Assembly (NCBI RefSeq): GCF_003031405.1
Contig: NZ_CP020469.1
Coordinates: forward strand, 2,108,001 to 2,172,000
Source: Halomonas sp. 'Soap Lake #6'
Lineage (GTDB): Bacteria; Pseudomonadota; Gammaproteobacteria; Pseudomonadales; Halomonadaceae
Length of the DNA stretch: 64,000 nucleotides
Direction of reading: 5' to 3'
Position numbers and translations under genes: made by a program. The notes beneath the pieces are model-generated. The model did not search any database and had not been told where the DNA came from. It saw nothing but the letters and a program-made list of their open reading frames with translations. Positions within the stretch are counted from its first letter, which is position 1; every line of letters starts with the position of its first letter. Below are positions 7,724 through 40,310 of this stretch, in pieces.

Positions 7724-8646
7724 CAGTGATGCCTACGTTTTTGGCGAGCTTTCTCAAGCTTCTCACAAAGCAGTTGTGCGCCCTCCATAAGGCGTGGCGT
7801 GGGCCGCTGAATAAGTGAGGGTGGCACAAAGAAAAGGTTATCTTGAGATACAGCGCTCAACTGCGAATATTGCTTCCAGTGAGTCAACCAGTGGCGGTTT
7901 TCTTCACCCATCCCACCGGCAATAATTGCTTCCGGATTGGCAGCCAGCACGGCTTCATCATCTATCCGCGGCACGAGGCGTGCCTGCTCGCCAAACACAT
8001 TCTCACCACCACACATTTCGACCACTTGGCCGATAAGGTGTTGGCTGTTAACGCTCATTAATGGCGCATCCCACACTTGGTAGAATGTTGGTACCAGATC
8101 GCGAGTGCTATAGCGCTCCTCAAGCGCGGCCATGGTGTCTCGGAAGTTATCTGCTACGGCTTGCCCGGTTGTTTCAGTACCTGCCAATCGCGCCAAACGC
8201 TCAATAGCGCTGGCCACGCCCTCCATATCACGGGGTTCAATGTAGAATACAGGCATGCCTAAAGCTTCGAGGGTTTCAAGCTGTTCAGCGGGATTGCCAG
8301 TCACCCAGCCAATCACTAAATCTGGCGCTAACCCCACCAGTTTTTCTAAATCGATACGTGTATGGCTGCCTACCGAAGCCACTTCTTTGGCCTCAGGTGG
8401 ATAGTCGCTGTAAGAAACAACAGCAACCACTTGGCTTCCCGCCCCTGCCGCGTAGGTTAATTCGGTAGCGCCAGGAGAGAGCGTGGCAATACGCCGGGCA
8501 TGGTCGTATAGACACACCTCACGATCACGATCGTCAATGGCGCAGCGAGAATGGTCGTGTGCCGCAGAAATAGTGGTGACCAGTAATAGCGCGAGGCCCA
8601 AGGCCCCGCGCGTTAAACAACTAGTTTTATTGCCCAAAGTGAACAC
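7723..8646 (-). CDS. btuF: Periplasmic cobalamin-binding protein BtuF
   Basis: A 307-residue class III substrate-binding protein with a signal peptide (hydrophobic stretch to about AAHDH) and the BtuF fold: RIATLSPGATELTYAAGAG, DYPPEAK, and LAPDLVIGWVTGNP. It delivers B12 from the periplasm to BtuCD. The start is GTG at 8646, preceded by AGGA seven bases away, so the gene overlaps the btuB 3' end by 20 bp; the stop overlaps the btuC start. Translational coupling through the operon is likely. Confidence 0.88.
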   Translation of the reverse strand: MFTLGNKTSCLTRGALGLALLLVTTISAAHDHSRCAIDDRDREVCLYDHARRIATLSPGATELTYAAGAGSQVVAVVSYSDYPPEAKEVASVGSHTRIDLEKLVGLAPDLVIGWVTGNPAEQLETLEALGMPVFYIEPRDMEGVASAIERLARLAGTETTGQAVADNFRDTMAALEERYSTRDLVPTFYQVWDAPLMSVNSQHLIGQVVEMCGGENVFGEQARLVPRIDDEAVLAANPEAIIAGGMGEENRHWLTHWKQYSQLSAVSQDNLFFVPPSLIQRPTPRLMEGAQLLCEKLEKARQKRRHH

Positions 8647-10444
8647 TCAAGAATCCTGCTCGGCCTGCGTTAATATAATCGGCACCGTCAAAAGAGCGTG
8701 TGGTGACATAGTCTTGATCTAGCACATTTTCAAGCGTGACACGGGCACTCCATAACGGAGCGAATTGCCAGCCGGCCCTTAGATTGACCAGCCCGTAGCC
8801 GCTCAAGCGATCTTGGTTTTGCGCGTCGCGATAGCGATGGTTTTGTGCCACCCAAGAACCGCCCACCGACCACTCACCCAGTTCGCGGTCAGCGTCCAAA
8901 CGAATGCTTTGGGAAGAGCGGTTCTGAAGGCGCTTCCCTGTTAGACGGTTTTCAGGGTCGGTATATGTCAGCGCAGCAGCTAGCGTCCAGTCATTCACTT
9001 CTACCCCTGCTGCCAGCTCTGCGCCGCGAATGCGGGTTTCGGGTACATTAAACTGAAGCCCTTGGCCAGTAATCAAATTATCGATCTCGGTTTGGTAGAG
9101 CGCCGCATCCCAAAACCAGCTAGCGTACTGGCCCCGCACGCCTATCTCAACGCTTTCAGAAGTCTCAGCGTCCAAGTCAGGATTACCGAAACCAGGAAAA
9201 TAGAGCTGGTTGTAGGTAGGTGCATTGAATGCCGTGCCATAGTTGGCCCGCAGGGTGTGGTGGCCATCCAAGTTGTAGCCTACCCCAACACTGCCAGTCA
9301 CTTCCTCACCGTAGGACTCGTTATCGTCAAAGCGCAGACTGGCTTGTAGCGTGAATGGCGAAAAGTCGAGGAGCGCCTGGGTAAATACCGCAGTGTTACT
9401 GCGACTGGTTTCATCATAGGCCGTGGTGCTATTTACCCGGTCTTCACTATACTCTGCGCCCGCAACCAGCTCATGATCTCCGACAATAAAGGTATTCTCC
9501 CAACGAGCGGTACTCACTTTCGTATCGAAGACGGAATCACCAAAGGCGGCAAAGTCATCGCTTTCATCACGAGCTTCACTGAGGGTTAAACGGCTACGCC
9601 AGCTGTCAGTAACTGGGAGCTCACCATAAACGCCCGCTACCTGCTGAACAAAGTCGTTTTCACCTCCATCGTACTCATTATTGCCACGGGCGCGAAGGGC
9701 TAGCACCCCCGCCTCTGCACCGCTATCAAAGGTATGAGACACCCGTGCTAAAGCCGTGGTGTTGTCGTAGCCTTTATTATCACCGTCGTGGCGCACTGGC
9801 TGACCGTCGGTAGTGAAATGACTACCTGCAAAGCTGTAGCGGGTGCCGCCCTCCTTACCACTAATGCCTGCACTTATCCTCTGGGTATTAAACGAGCCAC
9901 CGCCCACGGAGATGCGCGGCTGCGGGCCATCTTCTTGTCCTTCAGGTGTAAACAGTTGAATGACACCCCCCATCGCGTCAGCGCCATATAGGCTGCCGCG
10001 CGGGCCACGCACAATTTCAGCGCGATCAAACATGCGAGGCTCTAGGTGCTGCCAGGCAGCGCCACCACTAGTGGCTGAACGTAGACGAATGCCATCAATC
10101 AGCAGCACATTTTGGCCGCTGCCTGTGCCACGAATAAAGACACTGCTGTTTTTGCCAAAACTACCATTGCTAGAAACATCCACGCCGGGCTGGCCCCGTA
10201 AAAGATCAGTAATGCTGACAGGATCCTGGCGACGCAATGTGTCTTTGTTTAGCACGGTAACAGAGGCAAGGCTTTCATTAGCCGTACGCGGCGCAAGTGC
10301 CGCCGTTACAACCACTGGGTTAAGCGCTGTTTCGGAAGAAGATACTGCAGTCGTCTGCTCTGGTACTTGAGCCTGAACTGCAAGCGGTAATGCGGCCATG
10401 GCAAAAGCCGCTAATTTAGCGGTAGTTTGGAAACAATGATTCAT
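8627..10444 (-). CDS. btuB: TonB-dependent vitamin B12 outer-membrane receptor BtuB
   Basis: A TonB-dependent receptor of about 605 residues: signal peptide MNHCFQTTAKLAAFAMAA ending at VQAQ, a TonB-box-like stretch (NPVVVTAAL), plug domain (ITDLLRGQPGVDVSSNGS, FIRGTGSGQNVLLIDG, GPRGSLYGADAMGGVI), then a beta-barrel ending in aromatic-rich strands. It imports B12 across the outer membrane. I place the start at ATG 10444, the first with a good signal peptide; the frame is open further upstream to 10507. A cobalamin riboswitch lies upstream on the same strand. Confidence 0.92.
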   Translation of the reverse strand: MNHCFQTTAKLAAFAMAALPLAVQAQVPEQTTAVSSSETALNPVVVTAALAPRTANESLASVTVLNKDTLRRQDPVSITDLLRGQPGVDVSSNGSFGKNSSVFIRGTGSGQNVLLIDGIRLRSATSGGAAWQHLEPRMFDRAEIVRGPRGSLYGADAMGGVIQLFTPEGQEDGPQPRISVGGGSFNTQRISAGISGKEGGTRYSFAGSHFTTDGQPVRHDGDNKGYDNTTALARVSHTFDSGAEAGVLALRARGNNEYDGGENDFVQQVAGVYGELPVTDSWRSRLTLSEARDESDDFAAFGDSVFDTKVSTARWENTFIVGDHELVAGAEYSEDRVNSTTAYDETSRSNTAVFTQALLDFSPFTLQASLRFDDNESYGEEVTGSVGVGYNLDGHHTLRANYGTAFNAPTYNQLYFPGFGNPDLDAETSESVEIGVRGQYASWFWDAALYQTEIDNLITGQGLQFNVPETRIRGAELAAGVEVNDWTLAAALTYTDPENRLTGKRLQNRSSQSIRLDADRELGEWSVGGSWVAQNHRYRDAQNQDRLSGYGLVNLRAGWQFAPLWSARVTLENVLDQDYVTTRSFDGADYINAGRAGFLSVHFGQ

Positions 10445-10850: not shown

Positions 10851-10977
10851 GTAAGCTAGCAACTTGTTGGGAGGCGGTCAATTTTGTGATGGCTACTCAA
10901 CGCCCATAAGCGGTCCCACTCTTTCAAGCTCACCCTCTAGGCTAGTCAACAACAGGACCAGCATCCTGCCAATGGCT

Positions 10978-12042
10978 TTAACGGCACTGTCTGGCTGAGC
11001 GTCTTAATCCATCAGTTTTTTTGGGCTCCCATCCACCTATGTCTCCCAACCACCTATGTAGAGGCGCAGGTAATAATTTCAAAGCCGCTATACGGCAACG
11101 CGACCAGTACACCGAAAGCACCAGCAAGCCAACCCCCACTACCAATCCAGTAATCGCGAAACCTAGACTTATCACGCCGTACTCGGCCAGCACCTTGTTA
11201 TAAGTAAGCACAAGCACACTCATTGCTGACAGCATTAAAGCGCGCCGGTCTACCCATAACGAGATCAGGGCAAAAACCGCGTAAATAGATGTCACGCCTA
11301 TAGCATGCCTTAGGGCAAGGGAGTCGTAGCTGTACATGAGCACAAAAGAGAACGCACCGGAAACTATTAAGGGTGCAGCCAAAATATGTAACCAAAAAGC
11401 GACATCAGCACGGTAGCTGTTACGTTCTGGATCTTTAAGATCCCACCACATGGCAAAGGTAAAAACAGCAAGTCCCATCGCCAATTGTAAAATTGGGATA
11501 GTAATCAGAACACCGTGTTCATGGCCTGCTATGAGTAATTGCACAGTCAATACAAGGCAACCCACTAACACAGCAACCGTGACCGGCACCCGAAAACGCC
11601 ACCAGAAAAGCACTTGCACCGCGGCAGCAAGTAAACTCACTAAGATTAGATTTTCCAAACCCAGCAACTGGATGAGTAAAACTAGGCTGGTACCGCCAAA
11701 TGTAAGCGCCAGGGCAAAAGCTGGCAGTGCCATGCGTCGGCGACGAACAAAATACTCTGCAAGAACCCAGACACCGATAGCAACCCCTAAACTTGCGTTT
11801 AAACTCGTGACATGACTAAACAGACTACCAACGGCGGCCAGTACCAGAGCGCAGGCCACCACTACAAAAACGTCATTAAATCCGGAAATTAACCGAAAGT
11901 ACTCATCTTTTCGCCGTGTGGTTCCAGGCTTATCGCTGTGATGCACATAAGCTTTTACATCAGAATACTGCTGGCTAGTTAAAATGCCGGCATCTACACA
12001 GGACTGCAGATCCTCATCTGTATAATTTGTCACAACATTCAT
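10978..12042 (-). CDS. Uncharacterised polytopic membrane protein
   Basis: A 354-residue protein with a short soluble N-terminus (about 50 residues, starting MNVVTNYTDEDLQSCVDAGI, resembling the short helical head of DUF2157-type proteins) followed by roughly ten to twelve hydrophobic segments and a basic C-terminal tail. I do not recognise a function. It lies between the cob operon and the btu riboswitch, 130 bp from the riboswitch, on the same strand as both. A membrane role linked to B12 uptake is possible but unsupported. Confidence 0.7.
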   Translation of the reverse strand: MNVVTNYTDEDLQSCVDAGILTSQQYSDVKAYVHHSDKPGTTRRKDEYFRLISGFNDVFVVVACALVLAAVGSLFSHVTSLNASLGVAIGVWVLAEYFVRRRRMALPAFALALTFGGTSLVLLIQLLGLENLILVSLLAAAVQVLFWWRFRVPVTVAVLVGCLVLTVQLLIAGHEHGVLITIPILQLAMGLAVFTFAMWWDLKDPERNSYRADVAFWLHILAAPLIVSGAFSFVLMYSYDSLALRHAIGVTSIYAVFALISLWVDRRALMLSAMSVLVLTYNKVLAEYGVISLGFAITGLVVGVGLLVLSVYWSRCRIAALKLLPAPLHRWLGDIGGWEPKKTDGLRRSARQCR

Positions 12043-12279
12043 TCCTTAAATATTGGTGAACACCAAAACCAGCACTCTCGTTTCCACTTCTTACTCAGGG
12101 TCTACACTGACAACAAGGTTGTTTTGAGCAAACACCAGACACAGACCATTCGTATATACCCCTACTGGCACTTCAATCCCCCGTTCAGGTAATACACATC
12201 ACTCACTATTCGCTTATGTAAAACTAACCAGATAAAAAATCATTTAATAAATGGTGAGTTAGCTTCATTGCACGGAGGA

Positions 12280-28740: not shown

Positions 28741-30270
28741 CTAATACGTGCAAGTAGTAGCGGTGTCTTCTTTCGCTACTGCTAACTCAGGGTTGATCGA
28801 TACCACACTACCGCCCAGCAACCTTGCGCCGCCTTCCAGAACATTTACATCCATCGAGCCTTGAGCTTGATTTGCATAACTAACCTGAGTAATCGCGCGT
28901 TGTTGCGTATCGCCGTTAACCAGTATTTCCAGCGAACCATGATCACACCACCACTCCAGGGTTACGATCAAGCCATCAACGCTGCCTGCCGTATGGTCAC
29001 AAGCGAAATGCTCATCGAAAGCAGCTTGTCCATTCACACCTTGTCGCGTGTAGCGTAGTCCAACGTCCTCATCTCCCGCTTCAAGAATAAGCCACTGATG
29101 ATCGCCCTGCTGCAGTGACAGCGCCACTCGACTGCCTGACATCAAGGTAAGCGTAAGCACCCCACGACCTATCGCTTGCTGAAAGGTAAAGAGTACGTGT
29201 TGGCCAATACCCAGCCACGACTGCGGCTCAATGATTTGCGGATCAGCCGTTAACGCTTCATGGCACTCGCTGGCAATACGCTGACAAAGCTGAACGCCAT
29301 TCGATGTCGCACGCAAGGCTAGCTCTCGGGGTAGGCTCATCATTCCCCGCCAACCGGCCTCAGGTGCGTGGTTGGCGTACTGCCAATTGTTCAGCCACTC
29401 CACGGCTAAGCGACGCCCGTTAGTATTCGACCAGCTTTGCACGGCGTAGAAGTCGCGCCCTTCATCCATCATCAGGACGTCATCGGGAGAATGGTCGCTA
29501 GTAAAACGCTGCCCATCGAATTCCCCCACAAAATATTGCGTGAACGAGCCAAAGTCATTATCTGGGGTCGCGCCAATGCCTACGATTAACACCCAACGGC
29601 TAGACACCTGCCCAGTTCTAGCGCCTTCCACGGGTAGTTCGAACAGATCGGGGCACTCCCAAGGGTGCTGAGTATGCGCCCCGTGACCCTCGCCAAAAGC
29701 GCTGGCAAACTGCCAGTCCAGCAGATTATCCGAAGTATAAAAATGAATTTCCTGCCCGCAGGCCAGCGCCATTACCCAACGCTGGGTAGCCGAGTGCCAC
29801 AACACCTTTGGGTCACGAAAATCTTTAAACCCTGGCGCGGGAAGCACCGGGTTATGGGCGTACTGATGCCAAGTGCGGCCCTTGTCGCAGCTATAAGCCA
29901 AACACTGTGACTGCTCATAATCTTCAGGGTCACCGGAAAGCACTCGGTGGCAGGTATAAAACGCCAGCAGCCCCGGCTGGCCGTCAAACAGCCCCGTCAC
30001 ATCATGCTCATCCACAATGGCACTACCTGAAAAACACGCCCCTTGGGCGTCTGGCATCAGTGCAATAGGCAAGTGCTCCCAGTCGCAGAGATCGGCGCTT
30101 ACCGCATGCCCCCAATGCATGGGACCCCATACCGTGTCGTGGGGATGGTATTGATAAAAGAGATGATACTCCCCTTCGAAATATACAAGCCCGTTGGGGT
30201 CATTCATCCAGCCAGTAGGCGGCGTAAAATGCAGCGTTGGCCTAAGAGGAGTAAATTTGATGAGATTCAA
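28741..30270 (-). CDS. GH32 beta-fructosidase (sucrose hydrolase/invertase type)
   Basis: A 509-residue GH32 enzyme. The nucleophile motif is WMNDPNG, the transition-state stabiliser is FRDPK, and the acid/base lies in WECPDLF; a C-terminal beta-sandwich follows. There is no signal peptide, so it acts in the cytoplasm on sucrose or sucrose-6-phosphate. No sucrose PTS is visible nearby, so free sucrose imported by an ABC system is plausible. The start is probably TTG 30270 with AGGG nine bases upstream. A perfect 18-bp palindrome lies 14 bp before the start. Confidence 0.88.
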   Translation of the reverse strand: MNLIKFTPLRPTLHFTPPTGWMNDPNGLVYFEGEYHLFYQYHPHDTVWGPMHWGHAVSADLCDWEHLPIALMPDAQGACFSGSAIVDEHDVTGLFDGQPGLLAFYTCHRVLSGDPEDYEQSQCLAYSCDKGRTWHQYAHNPVLPAPGFKDFRDPKVLWHSATQRWVMALACGQEIHFYTSDNLLDWQFASAFGEGHGAHTQHPWECPDLFELPVEGARTGQVSSRWVLIVGIGATPDNDFGSFTQYFVGEFDGQRFTSDHSPDDVLMMDEGRDFYAVQSWSNTNGRRLAVEWLNNWQYANHAPEAGWRGMMSLPRELALRATSNGVQLCQRIASECHEALTADPQIIEPQSWLGIGQHVLFTFQQAIGRGVLTLTLMSGSRVALSLQQGDHQWLILEAGDEDVGLRYTRQGVNGQAAFDEHFACDHTAGSVDGLIVTLEWWCDHGSLEILVNGDTQQRAITQVSYANQAQGSMDVNVLEGGARLLGGSVVSINPELAVAKEDTATTCTY

Positions 30271-30505: not shown

Positions 30506-31318
30506 TCAAGCAATGTCGACAGTGGACCTGCCAGGCTCAGCCTCCCACTGCCCGTGCATATACTTCAGTGGCGTCATCCCTGTGTGCTGACGGAAGAAAT
30601 GAATAAAGGCGCTGTCCGAAGAGAACCCCAACAGATAGGCCACATCGTTAACCTGACGTTGCATTGATAATAGTTCGATAGCTGCAAGCAGACGCCATTG
30701 CTGGCGCCAGGCCTGGTAGCTCATCCCGGTTTCACGGCAAAAAATCCGGCTAACCGTCTTAGCACTAGCACCAAACTGTCCTGCAAGCGGGATCAGAGCT
30801 GGAGGTAATTTCCCCTCAGGGCCCCAGCGTTCAACCAGCGCCTTCAAACGCGGGTGTAACGGTAGCGTCAGTTGCAGTGACTCACGCTCAGCCTGCTGCA
30901 TCTCTTCTATAAACAACGCCAGCGTGTTGTGCGTATTAACATCCGTTATATCCCAAGGCCACCAGGCCATACGTTCGATCAGTGCGCGCAAAAGCTCATT
31001 CACTACGACCACTTTCACCTCCTGGCCAAGTAACTGAGACACCTCGAGGCTAAAGTAGACGGAGCGGTATGACACCACATTGGTCATCATCGCCTGATGC
31101 TGAACCCCAGCAGGAATCCACGCCGCTCGAGTTGGCGGCAGCACGCATCGCTGACCATCAAGCACAATGCGCATACACCCACGGGGGGCATACAGCAGTT
31201 GCCCTTTGGCGTGACTGTGCATACCTGAATCATGGCGACCGACCTCGGCGGCAATTCCCACCACGTTGCCGACTACCAAGTCCGGGTTAAAAGACTGCTG
31301 CTGGTTGATCAGTGCCAC
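30506..31318 (-). CDS. AraC-family regulator (NimR-like, cupin plus HTH)
   Basis: About 270 residues: an N-terminal cupin (HDSGMHSHAKGQLLYAPRGCMRI, PTRAAWIPAGVQH) and a C-terminal AraC DNA-binding domain (LPPALIPLAGQFGASAKTVSRIFCRETGMSYQAWRQQWRL, then VNDVAYLLGFSSDSAFIHFFRQHTGMTPLKY). The frame is open to ATG 31390, but that leaves almost no promoter before the divergent MFS gene. GTG 31318 is suggested, although neither start has a good Shine-Dalgarno. It probably regulates the divergent exporter, as NimR does for NimT. Confidence 0.8.
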   Translation of the reverse strand: MALINQQQSFNPDLVVGNVVGIAAEVGRHDSGMHSHAKGQLLYAPRGCMRIVLDGQRCVLPPTRAAWIPAGVQHQAMMTNVVSYRSVYFSLEVSQLLGQEVKVVVVNELLRALIERMAWWPWDITDVNTHNTLALFIEEMQQAERESLQLTLPLHPRLKALVERWGPEGKLPPALIPLAGQFGASAKTVSRIFCRETGMSYQAWRQQWRLLAAIELLSMQRQVNDVAYLLGFSSDSAFIHFFRQHTGMTPLKYMHGQWEAEPGRSTVDIA

Positions 31319-31416
31319 TGTCTTATTTTCGACATATTTGGTTTGAATAACGTTATTTGAACAACACAAGACTAAGTAAGCTAGCGCCATGTTTCAAGAG
31401 ACATGGAATCGTTACA

Positions 31417-32538
31417 ATGAACCCGCTACTTTTTTTGATCCTGGCACTGATGATGTTCCCCCAGGTGGTCGAGACTATCTACAGCCCTGCACTACCGTCG
31501 ATGGCGAGCTTTTTCGGCGTATCAGTCTCCACCGCAGGTCTGACCCTCTCGTGCTATTTTTTAGTGTTCGCCTTCGGCGTAGTGTTCTGGGGCATGATGG
31601 CAGACAAGCTAGGTCGTCGTTCGGCAATGCTGCTTGGGCTGGGGTGCTACGCACTTGGTTCCGGCATTGCTATCTACGCTCCCGATTTTCATTGGCTACT
31701 GCTAGCCCGAGCGCTAAGCGCCTTTGGCGCAGCGACCGGCTCTGTGGTCTGCCAGACAATCTTGCGTGACCGTTGGCAGGGAGCGAAACTGGCACGGATT
31801 TTCTCTTACATGGGAATGGGTATCGCCCTTAGTCCAGTGGTCGGTCTGTTTGCTGGCGGGCAGTTGGTCAGCGTTGGTGGTCATCAGGCAGTGTTCAGCG
31901 CACTACTTGTGCTGGCACTCCTGTTGCTTGCCATCACCGCCAAAATACTGCCAGAAACCCGTCAGGTACAGGTGCCTGTTGACCTAGTCACGCTAGGAAA
32001 ACAGATGGTGAAAGACGCTGCGCTATGGCGCGATGTCATTCTGGTGGCCTGCTTTAACGTACTGCTGTTTGGCTATTATCTACAGGGCCCATTCCTATTT
32101 GATAGGCTTGGACTGAGCGCGCAGGCGTTCGGTTACAGCGGGTTAGCGCTGGCAACCGGCAGCATACTTGGCAGCTATGCTAACAAGACGCTACTCAAGA
32201 ATGGCGGGAGCCCTCACCAACTTATCGTTCGAGCCTGTCAACTAGCGGTGGTCAGCGCCCTAGGCGTCTACACCCTGCAATCTTCCTTGCTATTCCTGTT
32301 ACCGATGATGGGCATAGCAGCAGCGTTTGCGGTGGCTATTCCCAATATCCTCAGCCGAGCACTTAAAAACTACCAGCAGCAGTTGGGCAGCGCTGGCGCC
32401 CTATTCGGCCTCGGCTACTACCTGCTAATAGGAGTAGGACTCGGAGCTAGCAGTTGGCTAAATAATATGGGCCAGAGTGCATTACTGTGCGCCATCACGG
32501 CACTACTCGCCACGCGTTGGGAAAAGTCGCGTCGATAA
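31417..32538 (+). CDS. MFS exporter, Bcr/CflA-like
   Basis: A 373-residue twelve-segment major-facilitator protein with MMADKLGRRSAMLLG (the loop 2-3 motif) and YSPALPSMASFFGVSVSTAGLTLS, typical of Bcr/CflA drug exporters. ATG 31417 begins at the first membrane segment; the frame extends upstream but overlaps the AraC gene. It is divergent from the AraC regulator, a standard efflux arrangement. Substrate unknown. Confidence 0.82.
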   Translation: MNPLLFLILALMMFPQVVETIYSPALPSMASFFGVSVSTAGLTLSCYFLVFAFGVVFWGMMADKLGRRSAMLLGLGCYALGSGIAIYAPDFHWLLLARALSAFGAATGSVVCQTILRDRWQGAKLARIFSYMGMGIALSPVVGLFAGGQLVSVGGHQAVFSALLVLALLLLAITAKILPETRQVQVPVDLVTLGKQMVKDAALWRDVILVACFNVLLFGYYLQGPFLFDRLGLSAQAFGYSGLALATGSILGSYANKTLLKNGGSPHQLIVRACQLAVVSALGVYTLQSSLLFLLPMMGIAAAFAVAIPNILSRALKNYQQQLGSAGALFGLGYYLLIGVGLGASSWLNNMGQSALLCAITALLATRWEKSRR

Positions 32539-32558
32539 CCCCCTACCTGGCGCACCAC

Positions 32559-32590
32559 AAAAAAGCCCGAGCATGGCAATATGCTCGGGC
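32559..32590 (-). terminator. Rho-independent terminator of the truncated eda copy
   Basis: On the minus strand, GCCCGAGCAT and ATGCTCGGGC pair around ATTGCC and are followed by a run of Ts. An identical hairpin follows the intact eda at 37332-37363. Confidence 0.9.
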
Positions 32591-32665
32591 AAATGACTTA
32601 CCCACACGACCCGATATCAGTGAGGCAAGTAACGAGAGTGCTCGTGTCGATTTACATCGTATTCG

Positions 32666-33110
32666 TTAGTGGTGAAAACGCTCAGCGGCCTGACGGGCCA
32701 GCTCGCGAATACCGTCCCAATCCTCTGCTTCAACCATGGCTTTCGGCGTTAGCCAAGAACCGCCTACACACATAACATTGGGTAGTGACAGGTAGGTTTC
32801 AGCGTTATCAACCGTGATACCACCGGTTGGGCAAAAACGTGCTTCGGGAATCGGCGCGCCAAAGGCTTTGATAGCTTTGGCACCACCACTGTACTCAGCC
32901 GGGAAAAACCTGAAGCGGCGGTAGCCGTATTGCCAGCCAGTCATCAGCTCAGAGATCGTTGATACGCCGGGCAACATCGGTACCGGGCTCTCTACGCCAT
33001 AGCGATACAGCGCTTCAGTGGCGCCGGGTGTCACCACAAAATCTGCACCTACCTGTTCAGCTTGGCGGTATTGTGCGGGTGTTAACACGGTACCTACACC
33101 GATGCTAGCG
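32666..33110 (-). pseudogene. 5'-truncated eda (KDPG aldolase) remnant
   Basis: This encodes the C-terminal two thirds of KDPG aldolase, starting at ASIGVGTVLTPAQYRQ and in frame to the normal stop. It lacks the first roughly 73 residues, including the catalytic Glu (E52 of the intact copy). The Schiff-base lysine is also lost: RRFKFFPAE of the intact copy reads RRFRFFPAE here (codon AGG). The open frame extends upstream to 33145 through unrelated sequence. It cannot be an active aldolase. It is the displaced end left by insertion of the NACHT segment. Confidence 0.9.
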
Positions 33111-33237
33111 ATAGAATGTCTTGTCGCCTGCAGAAGGGCCTTCATACTCAGGTGGAACGGTAACGTCAGTTTCTATGGCACATAACAGCCAAGCCACTGA
33201 GTAGACAGAATATTTTTAAGTTTACACTCCCTAATCT

Positions 33238-36200
33238 CTAGGTCGTCGCGTCAATTAGGCGTTGTTTGGCGGCTCGTCGTATTTCATCCTTGTCATCTGC
33301 TGATAACTTCGCACAATACTCGACAATCTGATCAGAGCCGAAGTAACACTGCCGTAGGAGTTCTACGCCCACTCTCCGCCATGCCGGATCTGGCTCGCTA
33401 ATCAATGTTTCAAGAGCACGGGTTTGCTCATCCGATATAGGCGTCTCGTGTTGCAATACACTAGCCGCGATTGCTGGCGGTAAGCTACGCGATAGAATGC
33501 GATCTATAACAGTATTTCTGAGAGACTCCGACATGACGATCGCATCCAGCACACGCTCTTTACCAACATTGCAAACGCCGAATTGTTTGTCAGCCAGTGT
33601 TGCTAGCAACCTATTGTCATCGATCGCGTTCTGTGCAATCAGTAGTTTCAGCAGCGTCTCGCGCGGACTTGATGGGGTGGCATCACCCTCATATTTTGAT
33701 TCATAGTCCAGCCATTTATCATAAGCGTCGATGATATCTTGGACCTCAAGTGGCTGCCCACGCTCAGCCAAACTCTTTGCGAGGTTAGCTGCCGCAGACG
33801 CGATTTCACAAGACTCACTGGCAAGGCCACGACGAATCACCTCGCACAGCGACAATGAGAACTCGACTTTTCCTTTTTCAAGTCCCTTGAACAAATATTC
33901 AGCTCCGCTGGACAACGGTCCAGCCAGCCGATCAAGAATCACTTCATTCGCAACATCAATCGATTGTTGCCCCTGAACCACCTCCGTCGCTGCCCATAGA
34001 GAAGCCTCCCCTGCAGCATCATTAAGCAGAGAGCGAGACTCTTCTTGAGTTAAGGTTGACGCCGCTAGAATGTTTCCTGCGACAAACGCCATCCATATCG
34101 AGCCATGATTCATCCCCGCCACAAGCATGGCGCGATCGGGTATCAGCGCTGCGGCTTTGTGCCAATCCGGCTCGGGGACATCGACATGGGGGATATCGAG
34201 ATCGAATGGCCTGAACCCATCCTCGGCATTGGCCCAGCGCACAACAGTCGCCGCCTCGGCGCTCAACGCCTGCGGATCGATCGCCGAGGCATGCACCAGG
34301 GCCTGCACGACGGTGCGCACGGCCGTAGCGTCATAGATGCCTTCCCATCGATAGACGTCATAAGCTGGAACTTCGTTGAAACCGGTCAGCGTGATAAGCG
34401 CGCCAAACTGGTAGAGCCGAGATGGTTCGGGACCTGCACTGCCAGCCTCCCCGCTTTCTGCAAGAACAGCCTCAGCCAGGGCGCGCAAAGCACTCACGGA
34501 CGCGTGGCGCCATTCTTCAGTGTTCAGCGGGGCAATCGCTGAAAGTGCCGAGGAGCGCCTCCAGGGAAGCTCAACCTCTTCGGCGATGCCGCGGGCCCTA
34601 AGCAGTGTTGTGACTTTACCCTCAAACCTCAAAGAGCCAAACGCCTCATGACCAAGTTGGGTCTCCGCGAAGTTCTTGAGGTTGGCATCCGGCTGCGCAT
34701 CCAGCGCTGCGAGCGCAATACATTCGATTAAATCACGGTCTTTGTCACTAAAAAGGCGTAAGCCACCGAGCAGCGATGCACTCATGGACTTGCTGATAGT
34801 AGGTAGTAATGTGCTCAGCACCTGAGCAAGCTCATCAGCTCCATAGCTGCCGAACTCAGCTGAAACCACGGATGCCCAAGCCACCAACTTAACCGCGCTA
34901 CGCTCGTCATGGAGGTATTTGGCGGCGATCGGACCGACAATGGATGAATGTATCTTGGCTAGATCGGAGAGAGCTAGGCCTACGCTGAACCGGTCCTCCT
35001 CCTCGGCTTGCACGGCTGCAAAGGCTAATACGGTAAGTTGCTGTACGAAGCCGTCGGTCACCTCGGCATCCCTGTCACCAGCAATAGCAAGCGCCCGCTC
35101 CATCTGGCCGGAATATCCGGACGCTCGGCGCTCGACAAGCAGGCGTGCAATCTCGTCTCCCAGGCCAAGGCCACCTGCAAATGCAATCGTCTCGTGCCAG
35201 TCAGGCTGATCGACGAGCAGGTTGAGATGTTTCGTGCGCTGCTCGTCAGGCAAATCCTTGAGATAACGTGCTGCAGTGAACTCAGTAAAAGTCTTATGGA
35301 CGAAAGTCCAGTAGGCGGTGCCATTATGATGGAGTTGCTCGATGATCCCGAGCTGCTCCCAATAGCACAGCACTGTCTCCACCCGTTCAGTCATGGCCAG
35401 CTTCGTACTCCCCATCGGCTCTGCGAGCAGCTCGGCGCAGCGCTCTGTGAGCGTATCAGCCGATACCAACGAGTCCTGCATTAGTAACCAGCCTAAACCG
35501 TTCAGAACATGCGCTGCAATGTGCGAAGAGGACGGGCGTAACACTACAGCTCCGCCGACGGTTTCGAAGAGTCCGATGAGTTCAGAGTAAAGCCGAGGCC
35601 GAGTATCTGGGAGTTCTCCGCTGGACGAGATGAGCACTGCAGCCATCCCCAGAAGATGAGGGCTGGTACTGATCGCCTCTGCCGCGCGCGATTTTGCAAG
35701 CTCGTGTTTTGCAACTTGGAGCGAGTCCTCGGCGTCATTAAGCGCGCCTAGCAGCTTAGCCAAATGAGCTGAGCCGTGATTCTTGTCAGGCGGCAGAAGA
35801 CGATAGTGCTTCCAGTCCGCCAGTGCAGCAGTTGTATATCCGATCGGACGCGTCGTTACGACAATACGGGCGGTCGGGTGGCCCGATGCAAAGGCGCGGA
35901 TCGCCCGCGCAACCGCGTCGTGGTTGCCGCCGCAATCGTCGAGACCGTCCACAAGTATGACAAGGTCGTTCAGTTTCGCACTATTGAAGCACTCAGGGGT
36001 GATGCCCGAACCGTCCAGTGCCTGATTGCGAAGCGCATGCTCGAAACTGTCTCCACGCGCCATTGCTGCGGCAATCGGCTTGAGCTTTACATCCAACACT
36101 GGAAACCCATCTGAGGCATAGCTACTGGCGAGCAAAGTCATCAAGGTCGACTTCCCCAGTCCCGGACCCGCTACAACAACCGCACGGTGCCTAAACCGAC

Positions 36201-37179
36201 CTGTCCACTCGGCGTCGAAAATAGGGGCATCACGCTCGAGGGCACCTACTGCGTCGTGATAACGAGCGAGTGCCTCCGCCGCGTCTTCGGTATTCGGTTG
36301 CTCGATCGCCGTCCCGACTACTCGCATTTCAAGTAGTGTGCTAAGCGGTAAACGCTTTCGTGCAGTCGGCAGCGTAAAGCAGTCACGTGTCGAAAACACC
36401 CAGTCCGCTAGTTTCATCGATATCGCGGCAGGAAAATCGGCATCACGGATCTCGATACTTTCTCTCTGGAGCAACCCAACCAAATGGGTCATGGCCCAGC
36501 GCCCACGGTGCTCGATCAGCGCTACTGCGTCACGATAGAGTGCACTCCAAGCAGCGCCCGCCCGGGATTCGTCTGCACACACCCATCGCAGCGCCTCTAT
36601 TGCCGCCATGATGTCTGCGTTCTCTGCGCTGAGAGCATGGACAACACGGATATTGACCCGTTGGCATGCCTGCTCCCATGCACCGCCTATGTCCAGAAGT
36701 CGGCGATGTAGCTCACTCCCGATTTCTGTGAGCTGATCACTTCGGCCTTGGCCAAGCCGCTTGAGATCCTTAGTTAGGTCTTCGCGGATCGTACCACTCG
36801 AATTCGGTGCAACCGCCAGTGCCCCATAATCGAAATGTTTGTCCCTGATAGCCGTGATCAAGGCTTCAAGCGCATCCCACAGCGCCGGACCGCGATTGAG
36901 ACCTTTCTTCGCTTGTACCTCGGCCGAGACAGCAGTTGAGAGTTCGAGGCGCACGTCATCGCCGGCCCCCTCGCTCTCTGCCCATACCGCCACAGGAACA
37001 TCAGCCACCGGAAGCCAGCCGAGCGGCGTGCCGCGCAGGAGATGCACACCAGCGATCGCAGTCACCGCCGCCTGGAAATTGACACCTCCTCCAGCCGCAG
37101 TTCCACCGCCAGCTTTTTTGATTCGAGCAGGTTTTGCTGATGCAGCGGCTAGATCCGCTCCATGTGTATTTGAAGTCAC
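33238..37179 (-). CDS. NACHT/STAND NTPase with N-terminal Cap4-like nuclease domain (predicted anti-phage)
   Basis: A 1313-residue protein. Residues 24-120 resemble the Cap4/DUF4297 nuclease: GGGVNFQ (30-36), acidic D74-D75 and E-V-Q-A-K (87-91), a plausible D...QxK core. Residues 330-450 form a NACHT ATPase: GPGLGKST (338-345), Walker B ILVDGLDD (D411, D414, D415) and VVTTRP with R444. About 700 C-terminal residues are Ala/Leu-rich helical repeats (HEAT-like), a likely sensor. Such proteins oligomerise on sensing phage and activate an effector, here probably DNA cleavage. The start is GTG with a weak RBS. It is a single gene with no partner, lying between two eda copies, so horizontal acquisition is likely. 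The nuclease assignment is inference. Confidence 0.85.
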   Translation of the reverse strand: MTSNTHGADLAAASAKPARIKKAGGGTAAGGGVNFQAAVTAIAGVHLLRGTPLGWLPVADVPVAVWAESEGAGDDVRLELSTAVSAEVQAKKGLNRGPALWDALEALITAIRDKHFDYGALAVAPNSSGTIREDLTKDLKRLGQGRSDQLTEIGSELHRRLLDIGGAWEQACQRVNIRVVHALSAENADIMAAIEALRWVCADESRAGAAWSALYRDAVALIEHRGRWAMTHLVGLLQRESIEIRDADFPAAISMKLADWVFSTRDCFTLPTARKRLPLSTLLEMRVVGTAIEQPNTEDAAEALARYHDAVGALERDAPIFDAEWTGRFRHRAVVVAGPGLGKSTLMTLLASSYASDGFPVLDVKLKPIAAAMARGDSFEHALRNQALDGSGITPECFNSAKLNDLVILVDGLDDCGGNHDAVARAIRAFASGHPTARIVVTTRPIGYTTAALADWKHYRLLPPDKNHGSAHLAKLLGALNDAEDSLQVAKHELAKSRAAEAISTSPHLLGMAAVLISSSGELPDTRPRLYSELIGLFETVGGAVVLRPSSSHIAAHVLNGLGWLLMQDSLVSADTLTERCAELLAEPMGSTKLAMTERVETVLCYWEQLGIIEQLHHNGTAYWTFVHKTFTEFTAARYLKDLPDEQRTKHLNLLVDQPDWHETIAFAGGLGLGDEIARLLVERRASGYSGQMERALAIAGDRDAEVTDGFVQQLTVLAFAAVQAEEEDRFSVGLALSDLAKIHSSIVGPIAAKYLHDERSAVKLVAWASVVSAEFGSYGADELAQVLSTLLPTISKSMSASLLGGLRLFSDKDRDLIECIALAALDAQPDANLKNFAETQLGHEAFGSLRFEGKVTTLLRARGIAEEVELPWRRSSALSAIAPLNTEEWRHASVSALRALAEAVLAESGEAGSAGPEPSRLYQFGALITLTGFNEVPAYDVYRWEGIYDATAVRTVVQALVHASAIDPQALSAEAATVVRWANAEDGFRPFDLDIPHVDVPEPDWHKAAALIPDRAMLVAGMNHGSIWMAFVAGNILAASTLTQEESRSLLNDAAGEASLWAATEVVQGQQSIDVANEVILDRLAGPLSSGAEYLFKGLEKGKVEFSLSLCEVIRRGLASESCEIASAAANLAKSLAERGQPLEVQDIIDAYDKWLDYESKYEGDATPSSPRETLLKLLIAQNAIDDNRLLATLADKQFGVCNVGKERVLDAIVMSESLRNTVIDRILSRSLPPAIAASVLQHETPISDEQTRALETLISEPDPAWRRVGVELLRQCYFGSDQIVEYCAKLSADDKDEIRRAAKQRLIDATT

Positions 37180-37314
37180 TTACTTTCAGACCAATGGTAT
37201 TGTTAAAAATGGAAGCCACAGACTAACACTTGAACGTGGGAAATCTCGCCAATTTCTTGTTATTCAGACTAGTCTTAAGCTTTATATCACACCCTTTAGT
37301 CGACGTCGGTAGCA

Positions 37315-37890
37315 CCTGCCTAGCACACCACAAAAAAGCCCGAGCATGGCAATATGCTCGGGCAAACGTCTTGCGCACACGACCCGACATCAGTGAGGCA
37401 AGTGACGAGAGTGCTCAGTATGGTCTACATCATGCTAATCGCAGATCAGTGGTGAAACCGCTCGGAGGCTTGGCGAGCTAGCTCACGAATGCCGTCCCAG
37501 TCTTCTGAATCAACCATTGCTTTGGGCGTTAACCAGGAGCCACCCACACACATGACGTTGGGCAGTGAAAGATATGTGTCGGCATTGTCTACGGTAATAC
37601 CGCCAGTAGGACAGAAGCGTGCTTCAGGTATCGGGGCACCAAATGCTTTAATCGCTTTAGCACCGCCACTGGATTCCGCAGGGAAGAACTTAAAGCGGCG
37701 GTAGCCATATTGCCATCCGGTCATTAACTCAGAGATGGTCGAAATACCGGGCAACATGGGTACTGGACTCTCTACGCCGTAGCGGTATAACGCTTCGGTT
37801 GCGCCAGGGGTGACCACAAAATCTGCACCAACCTGCTCAGCCTGACGGTACTGGGCCGGCGTTAACACCGTACCCACTCCAATACTGGCG
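37315..37890. repeat. Diverged direct repeat, copy 2 (within intact eda plus terminator)
   Basis: Partner of 32542-33110 in the same orientation. It starts at CCTGCCTAGCACACCA just outside the terminator and ends inside eda after AATACTGGCG. Recombination between the two copies would delete the NACHT gene and leave one complete eda. Confidence 0.9.
37332..37363 (-). terminator. Rho-independent terminator after intact eda
   Basis: Stem GCCCGAGCAT/ATGCTCGGGC with a T-run on the minus strand, 83 bp after the eda stop. It should separate zwf-pgl-eda transcription from the NACHT gene. Confidence 0.9.
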
Positions 37891-38108
37891 CCCGGCAGCG
37901 CTTGACGCATACGTTTGATGGCTTCTAGTGCACAATCTGTACGCAGGGTGATCTCCAACACCGTTAAGCCACCCTCTACCAAGGCGCGACCCAGCGGTAC
38001 GGCATCTTCAATGCGCTCAATGGTAATTACCGGAATAACTTCGGCTTTTAAGCAAATGCTGTCCAGCTCGGCGGTGCGCGTTGAGGGTAACTGTTTATCG
38101 ATGGTCAT
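37446..38108 (-). CDS. eda: KDPG aldolase Eda
   Basis: A 220-residue class I aldolase with catalytic Glu E52 (LEITLRT) and Schiff-base K140 (RRFKFFPAE), plus GVGTVLTPAQ and FVVTPGATEAL. It splits KDPG into pyruvate and glyceraldehyde-3-phosphate, completing the ED pathway. It is the third gene of zwf-pgl-eda. The part after about residue 73 is duplicated in diverged form beyond the NACHT gene, so the intact gene may be a hybrid of native and imported DNA. Confidence 0.95.
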   Translation of the reverse strand: MTIDKQLPSTRTAELDSICLKAEVIPVITIERIEDAVPLGRALVEGGLTVLEITLRTDCALEAIKRMRQALPGASIGVGTVLTPAQYRQAEQVGADFVVTPGATEALYRYGVESPVPMLPGISTISELMTGWQYGYRRFKFFPAESSGGAKAIKAFGAPIPEARFCPTGGITVDNADTYLSLPNVMCVGGSWLTPKAMVDSEDWDGIRELARQASERFHH

Positions 38109-38149
38109 CTATAAATCTCCAAGCAATTATTATTGGCGAAGGCCTGCCC

Positions 38150-38815
38150 TTAGGGCGCCCAGTAAATCGCCAGCGGGCAAGATAGGAAGGCGCGGATGGG
38201 CAGTTGGCGAACATCGTCACCACTCATGGCATTAGCCAACACGGTGCGCTTTTCATCGCCGGTAATATGCAGAATATGCCGCTTTGCCTGATGCAGACGG
38301 TCGGCAGAGAAGGTAATCCGTGGCTGTGGCTGACTTGGCGTTCTTACTGCCACTAAAAGCTCATCCGTGGCGAGCGCCAGGGTCAGCTCAGGGCTATCAG
38401 GGAATAGCGATGCCGTATGGCCATCGCCTCCCATCCCCAAGATGACAACACTGGCAGGCCAGGGCAGAGAAGCTGTGCGCTTGGCAACCTCCTCAACGCC
38501 CTCTTCCGGCGTCAAGTCACCAGAGGTCAGCGGTACAAAGTTGGCATCAGCAGCCGCTCCCTGGAGCAGGTTTTCTCGCACAAGCTTGGCGTTACTATCG
38601 CTGCTTTGCTCATCGACCCAACGCTCATCGGCCAGGGTGATATCAACCCGCTGCCAAGGTAGTTGCTTCGCCGCCAGGGCTTTGAAAAATGGCACCGGAG
38701 TGGAGCCACCAGACACAACCAAGAGAACACGCTCTTGACGAGTAAGGTCATCAGTTAATGCTTGAAAAACCGCCTCTGCTAACTGCTCGGCCAACGCTTG
38801 GCGTAGTTCACTCAT
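38150..38815 (-). CDS. pgl: 6-phosphogluconolactonase
   Basis: A 221-residue Pgl (DevB/SOL family): VVSGGSTPVPFFKAL, DITLADERWVDEQSSDSNAKLVRENLL, and GMGGDGHTASLFPDSPEL. It hydrolyses 6-phosphogluconolactone from Zwf. ATG 38815 is preferred because GAGGA lies upstream and it follows the zwf stop; the 38830 start has no RBS. Confidence 0.93.
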   Translation of the reverse strand: MSELRQALAEQLAEAVFQALTDDLTRQERVLLVVSGGSTPVPFFKALAAKQLPWQRVDITLADERWVDEQSSDSNAKLVRENLLQGAAADANFVPLTSGDLTPEEGVEEVAKRTASLPWPASVVILGMGGDGHTASLFPDSPELTLALATDELLVAVRTPSQPQPRITFSADRLHQAKRHILHITGDEKRTVLANAMSGDDVRQLPIRAFLSCPLAIYWAP

Positions 38816-38816
38816 A

Positions 38817-40310
38817 TCAATAATCCTCATACCAGCTGCGGCCGTCTTGGGTGATCATAGCGATGGAGGCAACCGGCCCCCAAGAGCCAGCGGGGTAGCG
38901 GCGCGGCGGTGTTTCCCGTACTTTCCAGCCGTCGATAAGCTGGTCGCACCAACGCCAGGCGTGCTCAACTTCATCCCGGCGTACAAATAGATACTGCTGG
39001 CCTTTCATTACTTCTAGCAGCAGACGTTCATAGGCATCAGGGATACGCGATTTGGGGAAAGCGCTATTAAAATCCAAATGCAATGGACCAGGACGCAAGC
39101 GCATGCCTTTATCTAAGCCGCTATCTTTGGTAAGCACCTGGAGAGCAATACCCTCTTCTGGCTGCAGGCGAATAATCAGTTTATTAGACGCAATACCACG
39201 CTGATCGGGGTCAAAGATGTAGTGCGGCTGCTGGCGGAAGTGAATAACGATTTGCGACAGTTTTTCTGGCATGCGCTTACCAGTGCGCAGGTAAAATGGC
39301 ACGCCTGCCCAACGCCAGTTAGCCACTTCGGTCTTCATCGCCACAAAGGTCTCAGTATGGCTTTGGGTATTAGCCCCCTCCTCCTCCAGGTAGCCAGGTA
39401 CCGGCTGGCCATCGCTGGTTCCCGCAATATATTGGCCACGCACCACGTCGCGGCCTAAGGCCTCGCCAGTAAATGGCTTCAGCGCTTTCAGCACTTTTAC
39501 CTTTTCATCGCGGATAGCATCTGCATCCAGATTGGAAGGTGGGTCCATGGCGATCAAACAGAGCAGCTGCAGCAAGTGGTTCTGCACCATATCGCGCAGC
39601 TGTCCGGCATCATCGAAGTAACCCCAGCGGCCTTCAATACCCACCTTTTCCGCGACGGTGATTTCAACGTGGGAAATATGATTCTGGTTCCACTGAGTGC
39701 CAAATAGCGGATTAGCAAAGCGCAAGGCAATCAGGTTTTGTACCGTCTCTTTACCTAAGTAGTGATCGATACGATAGATACGCGACTCGGGGAACACCGC
39801 ACCGATGGCATCATTGATCTGTTCTGAAGAAGCCAGGTCATAGCCAATTGGCTTCTCAACCACCACACGGCTTTCATCATCCAGGCTACCGCTGGCCTGA
39901 AGGTTATAGCAAATATCGCCATAAATACGTGCTGCCACAGAGAGGTACACCACCATGGGCTGACTGGAGCCTTCACGCCATTGGCGTATCTGCTCAAAAC
40001 CGCCTGCTTCTTTGAAATCCAACTTGAGGTAGTCCAGGCGGTTAAGAAAGCGCTCAAGACTCTCAGGATCTTGCTCGCTTTTTTTGAGGCGCTTTTGCAA
40101 CGCTCGGCTTACCAGTTGGCGAAATGCATCAACATCGTGCTCCTGGCGTGCCAGCCCCATAATCCGCGTACTTTCAGGCATCAAGCCTTCGCGGTCTAAA
40201 TGATAAAGGGCGGGAAACAGCTTGCGCATAGCAAGGTCGCCTAACGCACCAAAAAGCGCTAAATCAATCGCATGCTTCGGATCGCCCAGCGGGGCATGTG
40301 ACTGGCTCAT
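38817..40310 (-). CDS. zwf: Glucose-6-phosphate 1-dehydrogenase
   Basis: A 497-residue G6PD with the coenzyme-binding [18 protein letters not shown] (Leu where Ser is usual in GASGDL) and the substrate motif [14 protein letters not shown]. It makes 6-phosphogluconolactone and NAD(P)H, starting the ED route from glucose-6-phosphate. First gene of zwf-pgl-eda. A perfect HexR-consensus site lies about 87-101 bp upstream, with a weaker one closer in. Confidence 0.95.

Follow-up and report, generated by a model that had tools for sequence, protein, structure and literature searches.

The chromosome of Halomonas sp. 'Soap Lake #6' carries a gene for a large NACHT-like protein between two diverged 3′ ends of eda, the gene for KDPG aldolase, and the question raised by this locus is which of the two ends is the organism's own and how a putative antiphage gene came to stand between them. 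The locus lies in a window of 64 kb (NCBI RefSeq assembly GCF_003031405.1, contig NZ_CP020469.1, positions 2,108,001 to 2,172,000). All coordinates given here are positions in that window; G000 denotes the organism's own genome, a single contig of 4,803,686 bases, and other G-numbers denote the genomes with which it was compared. The order on the minus strand is zwf-pgl-eda-terminator-NACHT-eda′-terminator, followed by mfs on the plus strand and by araC and sacA on the minus strand (the names zwf, pgl and sacA were assigned by eye). A sequence-only reading of this DNA had proposed that eda was rebuilt as a hybrid by incoming DNA, with the native end being shifted downstream. That direction is reversed, because on comparison with relatives the intact copy is native and the broken copy foreign, and the arrangement is probably best explained by homology-facilitated illegitimate recombination with inter-species DNA.

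As that reading had described, the two eda ends and their terminators form a direct repeat. It contains an ungapped match of 300 nucleotides (nt) at 78% identity (32668/37448) and a second of 117 nt at 86% (32542/37315), and the whole repeats comprise about 590 bp of diverged orthologous sequence. The estimate of roughly 80% DNA identity with mostly silent differences was likewise accurate: the eda copies are 79.5% identical over 438 shared nt (146 codons including the stop), with 82 synonymous and 7 nonsynonymous differences. Both copies have the same terminator sequence of 41 nt, for which 0 matches are expected (100 shuffles). The hairpin behind the intact gene (37338–37363, minus strand) has a 10-bp stem with 7 GC pairs followed by a run of six T, and is G030-like up to the T-run; the hairpin behind eda′ (32565–32590, minus strand), which belongs to the foreign sequence, is identical to it. 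A general terminator scan was uninformative alone (6 found versus 5.1 ± 2.3 in shuffles), and the two eda hairpins have the longest stems in it.

By its sequence affinities, the intact eda (37446–38108, minus strand; 220 aa; PF01081, E 2.3e-71) is the native gene and not a hybrid, and G030 is the sister genome. The 3′ part of the gene is 91.6% identical to G030, the next best relative reaching 82.0%, and across the intact eda, pgl and the beginning of zwf (37301 to 39100) no 150-bp block has a nearer relative than G030 (89–98%). The flanks beyond are mostly above 90% identical to G030, with 84–86% at 40.4–40.8 and 42.4–43.6 kb. When matches shorter than 160 bases are ignored, the background identity of G030 is 90–96% over the matched stretches of window positions 8–13 kb and 96% over a remote 6-kb stretch; G064, G078, G002 and G037 stand at 67–81% in the same stretches, and G064 and G078 match only about 1.1 kb of the remote one, at 67–68%. 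Informative sites were defined as positions where G064 and G030 differ. The intact eda with its terminator holds 140 of these, of which 107 are native-type, 18 donor-type and 15 other, with no switch between types; a hybrid intact eda is contradicted by these sites, which reveal no breakpoint along the gene. The arrangement in G030 places sacA 209 bp after eda. Elsewhere in the window, the stretch 10955–12243 has no match in G064, G078, G002 or G037 and only an 88-base piece in G030, although its flanks match; it encloses an open reading frame (ORF) at 10978–12042 for a protein of 354 aa that by eye resembles a membrane protein.

The truncated eda′ (codons 74–220, to the stop; 32666–33110, minus strand; 98.2% to G064) is, on the same kind of comparison, a foreign copy continuous with a G064-like terminator, mfs, araC and 5′ part of sacA. 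All 150-bp blocks between 33110 and 29951 have their nearest relative in the G064 clade, and G064 itself matches them at 95–100%; G030 stands at 73–81% over comparable blocks, except for the conserved terminator block (90%). Of 104 informative sites in eda′ and its terminator, 101 are donor-type, 1 is native-type and 2 are other. The foreign mfs transporter gene (31357–32538, plus strand) encodes a protein 97% identical to that of G064 and 96% to that of G078, which are its only close relatives among the matches listed from 82 genus genomes, the others not exceeding 35%. The foreign araC-type regulator gene (30506–31390, minus strand) is 98% identical to G064 in amino acids and 95–100% in nucleotides over 150-bp blocks. 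Within the sucrose hydrolase-like gene sacA (28741–30270, minus strand), whose 5′ part is foreign and whose 3′ part is not, the informative sites turn from donor to native between about 29940 and about 29650, which is the interval of a homologous crossover. The foreign block of eda′, terminator, mfs, araC and 5′ sacA amounts to about 3.26 kb and reaches about 29.85 kb. At its opposite end, donor eda homology ends at codon 74 and the adjoining 127 bp does not align with eda; a weak inverted repeat that spans this joint is taken as chance. The interval 32542–38108, to which the sequence-only reading had assigned the arrangement, was correctly observed but ends at the mfs boundary, whereas the foreign tract continues to about 29.85 kb. 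The same reading had taken homologous recombination at eda as the capture route, and here it must give way, since the demonstrated crossover is in sacA and not in eda.

The gene eda was present in 82 of the 82 genus genomes searched. The eda regions of 80 of them, the organism's own included, were compared (G021 and G052 were left out), and the tree of the eda 3′ part was built from 78 of 81 loci together with the truncated copy, G071b, G008 and G051 being excluded as split, duplicated or incomplete. G071 carries zwf-pgl-eda twice, near the start and end of contig C1 (loci L037 and L038), with one eda split between frames; these are possibly redundant contig ends of the assembly. In the tree, the intact eda pairs with G030 (support 100/97) and the truncated eda groups with G064 and G078 (support 100/98) within a clade that includes G002, G043, G048 and G080. 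Since eda′ is nested in the G064 clade, the transfer went into the G000 lineage. A sister pairing of the two copies is rejected in the approximately unbiased (AU) test (p-AU 0.0015), and a recent local duplication of eda is contradicted by this result and by the differing nearest relatives of the copies, so that the earlier suggestion of two lineages brought together stands.

Between the two eda ends lies the NACHT segment of 4.2 kb. The gene (33238–37179, minus strand) encodes 1313 aa and is preceded by an upstream flank of 37% GC (37180–37302, minus strand) and followed by a downstream flank of 127 bp and 43% GC (33111–33237, minus strand), which ends at the non-homologous joint with eda′. 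In 275 family genomes the downstream flank found only itself and short weak matches with E of at least 0.004, and the upstream flank only itself and short weak matches with E of at least 0.012; neither has a further copy in the organism's own genome or a source in plasmids, nor has the downstream flank one in phages. The last native-side sequence before the NACHT segment is a post-terminator tail (37303–37331, minus strand) that resembles intergenic sequence and the last mfs codons, at about 79% identity over a short length. These approximately 28 nt past the T-run of the intact terminator are unlike G030, where the sacA leader follows. With G000 as the query among the 31 loci that have a T-run of that form, the tail resembles those of G078, G064 and G068 (alignment scores of 12–14, versus 4 or less in the remaining 27). 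In G064 and G078 the tail runs into the mfs stop, and in a random draw 0 of 20000 29-mers from the window matched the tail as well as G078 does. The native lineage may formerly have had an mfs of its own here, or else the eda end may have carried such a tail from an earlier time; so short a stretch is leaned on only lightly as evidence.

We propose that chromosomal DNA of a G064-like congeneric species recombined into the chromosome just downstream of eda. The donor piece would have consisted of the 3′ two thirds of eda, the terminator, mfs, araC and the 5′ part of sacA. One of its ends would have been resolved by the homologous crossover within sacA that the informative-site switch displays. 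Its other end stops in the donor eda at codon 74 and abuts the NACHT segment, which in turn abuts the native tail; these junctions can be read directly, and the manner in which they were joined would be illegitimate. With one homologous border, in sacA, and one non-homologous border, between eda codon 74 and the NACHT flank, the locus looks as homology-facilitated illegitimate recombination would leave it. On this view the truncated eda would be a passenger at the broken end of a donor fragment, and neither a displaced native end nor an attachment site. The NACHT gene would have come on the same molecule, at its non-homologous end, or would already have been resident and merely have bounded the joint. 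Three versions of the order of events may be entertained, in which NACHT came with the incoming molecule, was already resident, or arrived later with a conspecific eda.

Several points weigh against this account. Two non-homologous joints are needed (NACHT with the tail, and NACHT with eda′), which leaves room for more than one event. Since no parent was found for the NACHT segment, neither joint lends itself to a check for microhomology; no intermediate arrangement occurs among the genomes compared; and a literature search on competence in Halomonas yielded nothing usable. The stretch from 27.7 to 29.65 kb resembles G030 at a low and patchy level (69–93%) and all relatives compared in a patchy way, so the crossover region (sacA, frk) may contain older exchanges. 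Finally, a second clade test, in which the truncated copy was held together with G000 and G030, is not rejected (p-AU 0.27). In our reading the long branch of G000 and G030 can be shifted next to the G064 group almost without penalty, and the result does not make the truncated copy kin to G030.

The alternative that survives best, although an unlikely one, is the mirror image of this order. A G064-like eda-mfs-araC-sacA block would have arrived first by ordinary replacement, and an own-lineage eda-terminator-NACHT piece would later have recombined onto it, with its anchor in zwf/pgl/eda and an illegitimate join at codon 74, restoring the native eda and leaving the G064-like end downstream. A conspecific intact eda with NACHT would leave no visible breakpoint, because both look native, and the topology is that of the sequence-only reading with native and foreign roles exchanged; however, two imports at one spot are required, the first without a left border, and there is no conspecific genome among those compared to show the arrangement. 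Distinctly less probable is an insertion with long target duplication, by which NACHT would have inserted in the donor species to give eda-NACHT-eda′ and the whole would then have moved, with its left crossover in the terminator. The repeats do cover mid-eda to the end of mfs on both sides of NACHT, and terminators identical over 41 bp are a possible crossover site. Such an insertion is made less likely by the fact that the flanking copies are not copies of one another, and no second such eda end lies downstream of eda in the donor-clade loci compared. Moreover, the NACHT-side tail differs from the mfs ends of G064, of G078 and of the eda′ side by 5–6 substitutions plus gaps in 29 nt, although identity to G064 along the donor tract is about 97.5% (binomial P of 5 or more in 28, 6e-4 at 2.5% divergence and 0.005 at 4%, for a very short stretch). 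The p-AU of 0.0015 bears on duplication in this lineage, and the only thing to speak against a duplication in the donor with later transfer is the short tail. The model of the sequence-only reading, in which a hybrid eda formed when NACHT came in with the 3′ part of a foreign eda, accords with the gene order and the two diverged eda ends, but is very improbable when the intact eda stays nearest G030 right up to its end and foreign sequence makes up the displaced end. A recent local duplication or an assembly chimera, for which the tandem orientation of the copies speaks, is very improbable in view of the 79.5% identity, the different nearest relatives and a genome in a single contig.

Homology-facilitated illegitimate recombination remains our preferred explanation of the joints, and what was carried or bounded by them is a gene whose defence role is likely by context, and unproven. 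Judged by its sequence, the protein would be a self-contained STAND-type antiphage protein with a sensor region at the C-terminus, an NTPase in the centre and, at the N-terminus, an effector that may be a nuclease. Its match to the NACHT family PF05729 is weak and lies below the curated cut-off (20.6 versus 26.7 bits, E 4.3e-4); for the two closest homologues PF05729 is not listed at E 0.1, and there are only other weak P-loop/STAND matches. NCBIfam gave none for the protein at E of 0.1 or less, and PADLOC gave a weak match to the candidate model PDC-M54A (3.3e-5). All four sequences compared share, without variation, the motifs GPGxGKST and DGLD, and likewise D74, D75, Q89 and K91, which we take to be a possible PD-(D/E)XK-like motif. 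The predicted structure of the first 330 residues is unusable (mean predicted local distance difference test score, pLDDT, of 34), and among solved structures there was no match at E of 1 or less with the single sequence and a best E of 0.068 with a profile.

The closest homologues, at 66–70% identity, are from Thiocapsa sp. KS1 and a gammaproteobacterial metagenome-assembled genome, and one of 31–33% is on the conjugative Rhizobium plasmid pRLa11. Three plasmid records match the protein, one of them covering 83% at 33% identity, and no match was found in phages or viral contigs, the viral-contig search being sensitive to close relatives only. Among 274 other family genomes, 273 are without a match and one (G158) has a short weak match; partial matches occur in 6 of 368 other genomes of the class. 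In Thiocapsa sp. KS1 (locus L053, 7911–17616) an ORF of 258 aa separates the homologue from genes matching BREX PglZ and BrxHI; a gene that by eye is of conjugation type lies on its other side. In the window, a scan upstream of NACHT found no sigma-70-like promoter, and an eda terminator stands on either side of the gene. From the sequence of the repeats, clean deletion of the gene between them, mainly via the identical 41-bp terminator, seems plausible.

Empty sites, for which the sequence-only reading had looked to related genomes, are indeed found. The loci compared were 80 (G000 and 79 relatives). Within 300 bp of eda, sacA comes first among the anchor genes in 11 of them, frk in 4, mfs in 2 and NACHT in 1; in 34 the anchor is farther off, and in 28 none occurs in the DNA compared. 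The content of the gap was annotated for four loci with larger gaps (G068, G070, G008 and G040), and G072 was also looked at. G068 (locus L089) has, just past the eda terminator, an AbiEii toxin gene and a small preceding ORF (7757–8479 and 8476–8682, minus strand; PF08843 7e-18, PADLOC 4e-67), adjoined by a DDE transposase. The gaps of G070 and G008 contain transposases of IS110 and IS4/5 type, respectively, and that of G040 a pyrophosphatase. In G072 (locus L036, about 10222–10350) a second eda end of 138 bp lies about 2 kb downstream of the intact eda, with an edd-like ORF (by eye) between; this end matches its own eda best (86%; G065 85%) and was set aside as a different history. The NACHT gene of G000 and the AbiEii pair of G068 both start within about 170 nt of the same tail of about 28 nt. 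It is a tentative possibility, and no better than that, that defence genes in the genus land repeatedly, and without an integrase, at the end of the eda terminator, where foreign housekeeping-gene ends serve as accidental homology arms. Because only these gaps were annotated, such a landing place is a lead and not a census.

The processes invoked here have precedents. Homology-facilitated illegitimate recombination has been reported in competent bacteria and in E. coli conjugation (PMC3240628). As in that process, the present locus has a homologous border on one side (sacA) and a non-homologous one on the other, contains chromosomal DNA from a donor, shows no integrase that could be detected and retains an orphan gene end; it differs in being inferred from one natural locus, with two joints on the left side and a cargo whose source was not found. 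The same process has been proposed for displaced immunity genes in Vibrio (PMC5361080). In those type VI secretion system orphan immunity-gene arrays a homologous anchor is likewise proposed and the remnants are not sisters of the resident copy, but the remnant there is a retained native gene and here a foreign housekeeping-gene end. Restriction–modification genes inserted with long target duplication (Nobusato, 2000, as cited in PMC3031569) resemble this case in having a defence-type gene between chromosomal direct repeats, although the repeats here are orthologues from two species and not copies of each other. At integrase-free hotspots, where recombination occurs at flanking core genes (PMC5635113), cargo is similarly exchanged beside core genes without recognisable mobile-element functions, whereas only one border is homologous here. 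As for the cargo, bNACHT25 and bNACHT32 are nuclease-NACHT antiphage proteins (PMC12169576), and the protein described here is likened to them by description, not by sequence, in its central NACHT-type NTPase and possible PD-(D/E)XK-like N-terminus; unlike them, the homologues found here (31–70% identity) are apparently uncharacterised. Searches of the open-access literature turned up these general processes and kinds of protein, and none of the titles and abstract openings that they listed deals with this locus.

An integrase-mediated island in a gene 3′ end would look different. Pfam detected no integrase among the NACHT, eda, eda′, mfs and araC proteins and inspection by eye recognised none in the ORFs of 90 aa or more listed between 28000 and 44000, in agreement with the sequence-only reading, and the repeats are diverged orthologues of about 590 bp, not short attachment repeats. 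Our impression is that discussion of defence-gene movement centres mostly on integrases, phages and conjugative elements. This locus is a clear new example of a known process, the twist being that it is the truncated copy which is foreign. It is also a natural case that can be read, with the donor clade, the homologous border and the non-homologous borders each located to within about 0.3 kb or less. Next to a defence-like gene, a truncated housekeeping gene can therefore mark the end of a donor fragment and not a displaced native end, and telling the one from the other requires lineage comparison.

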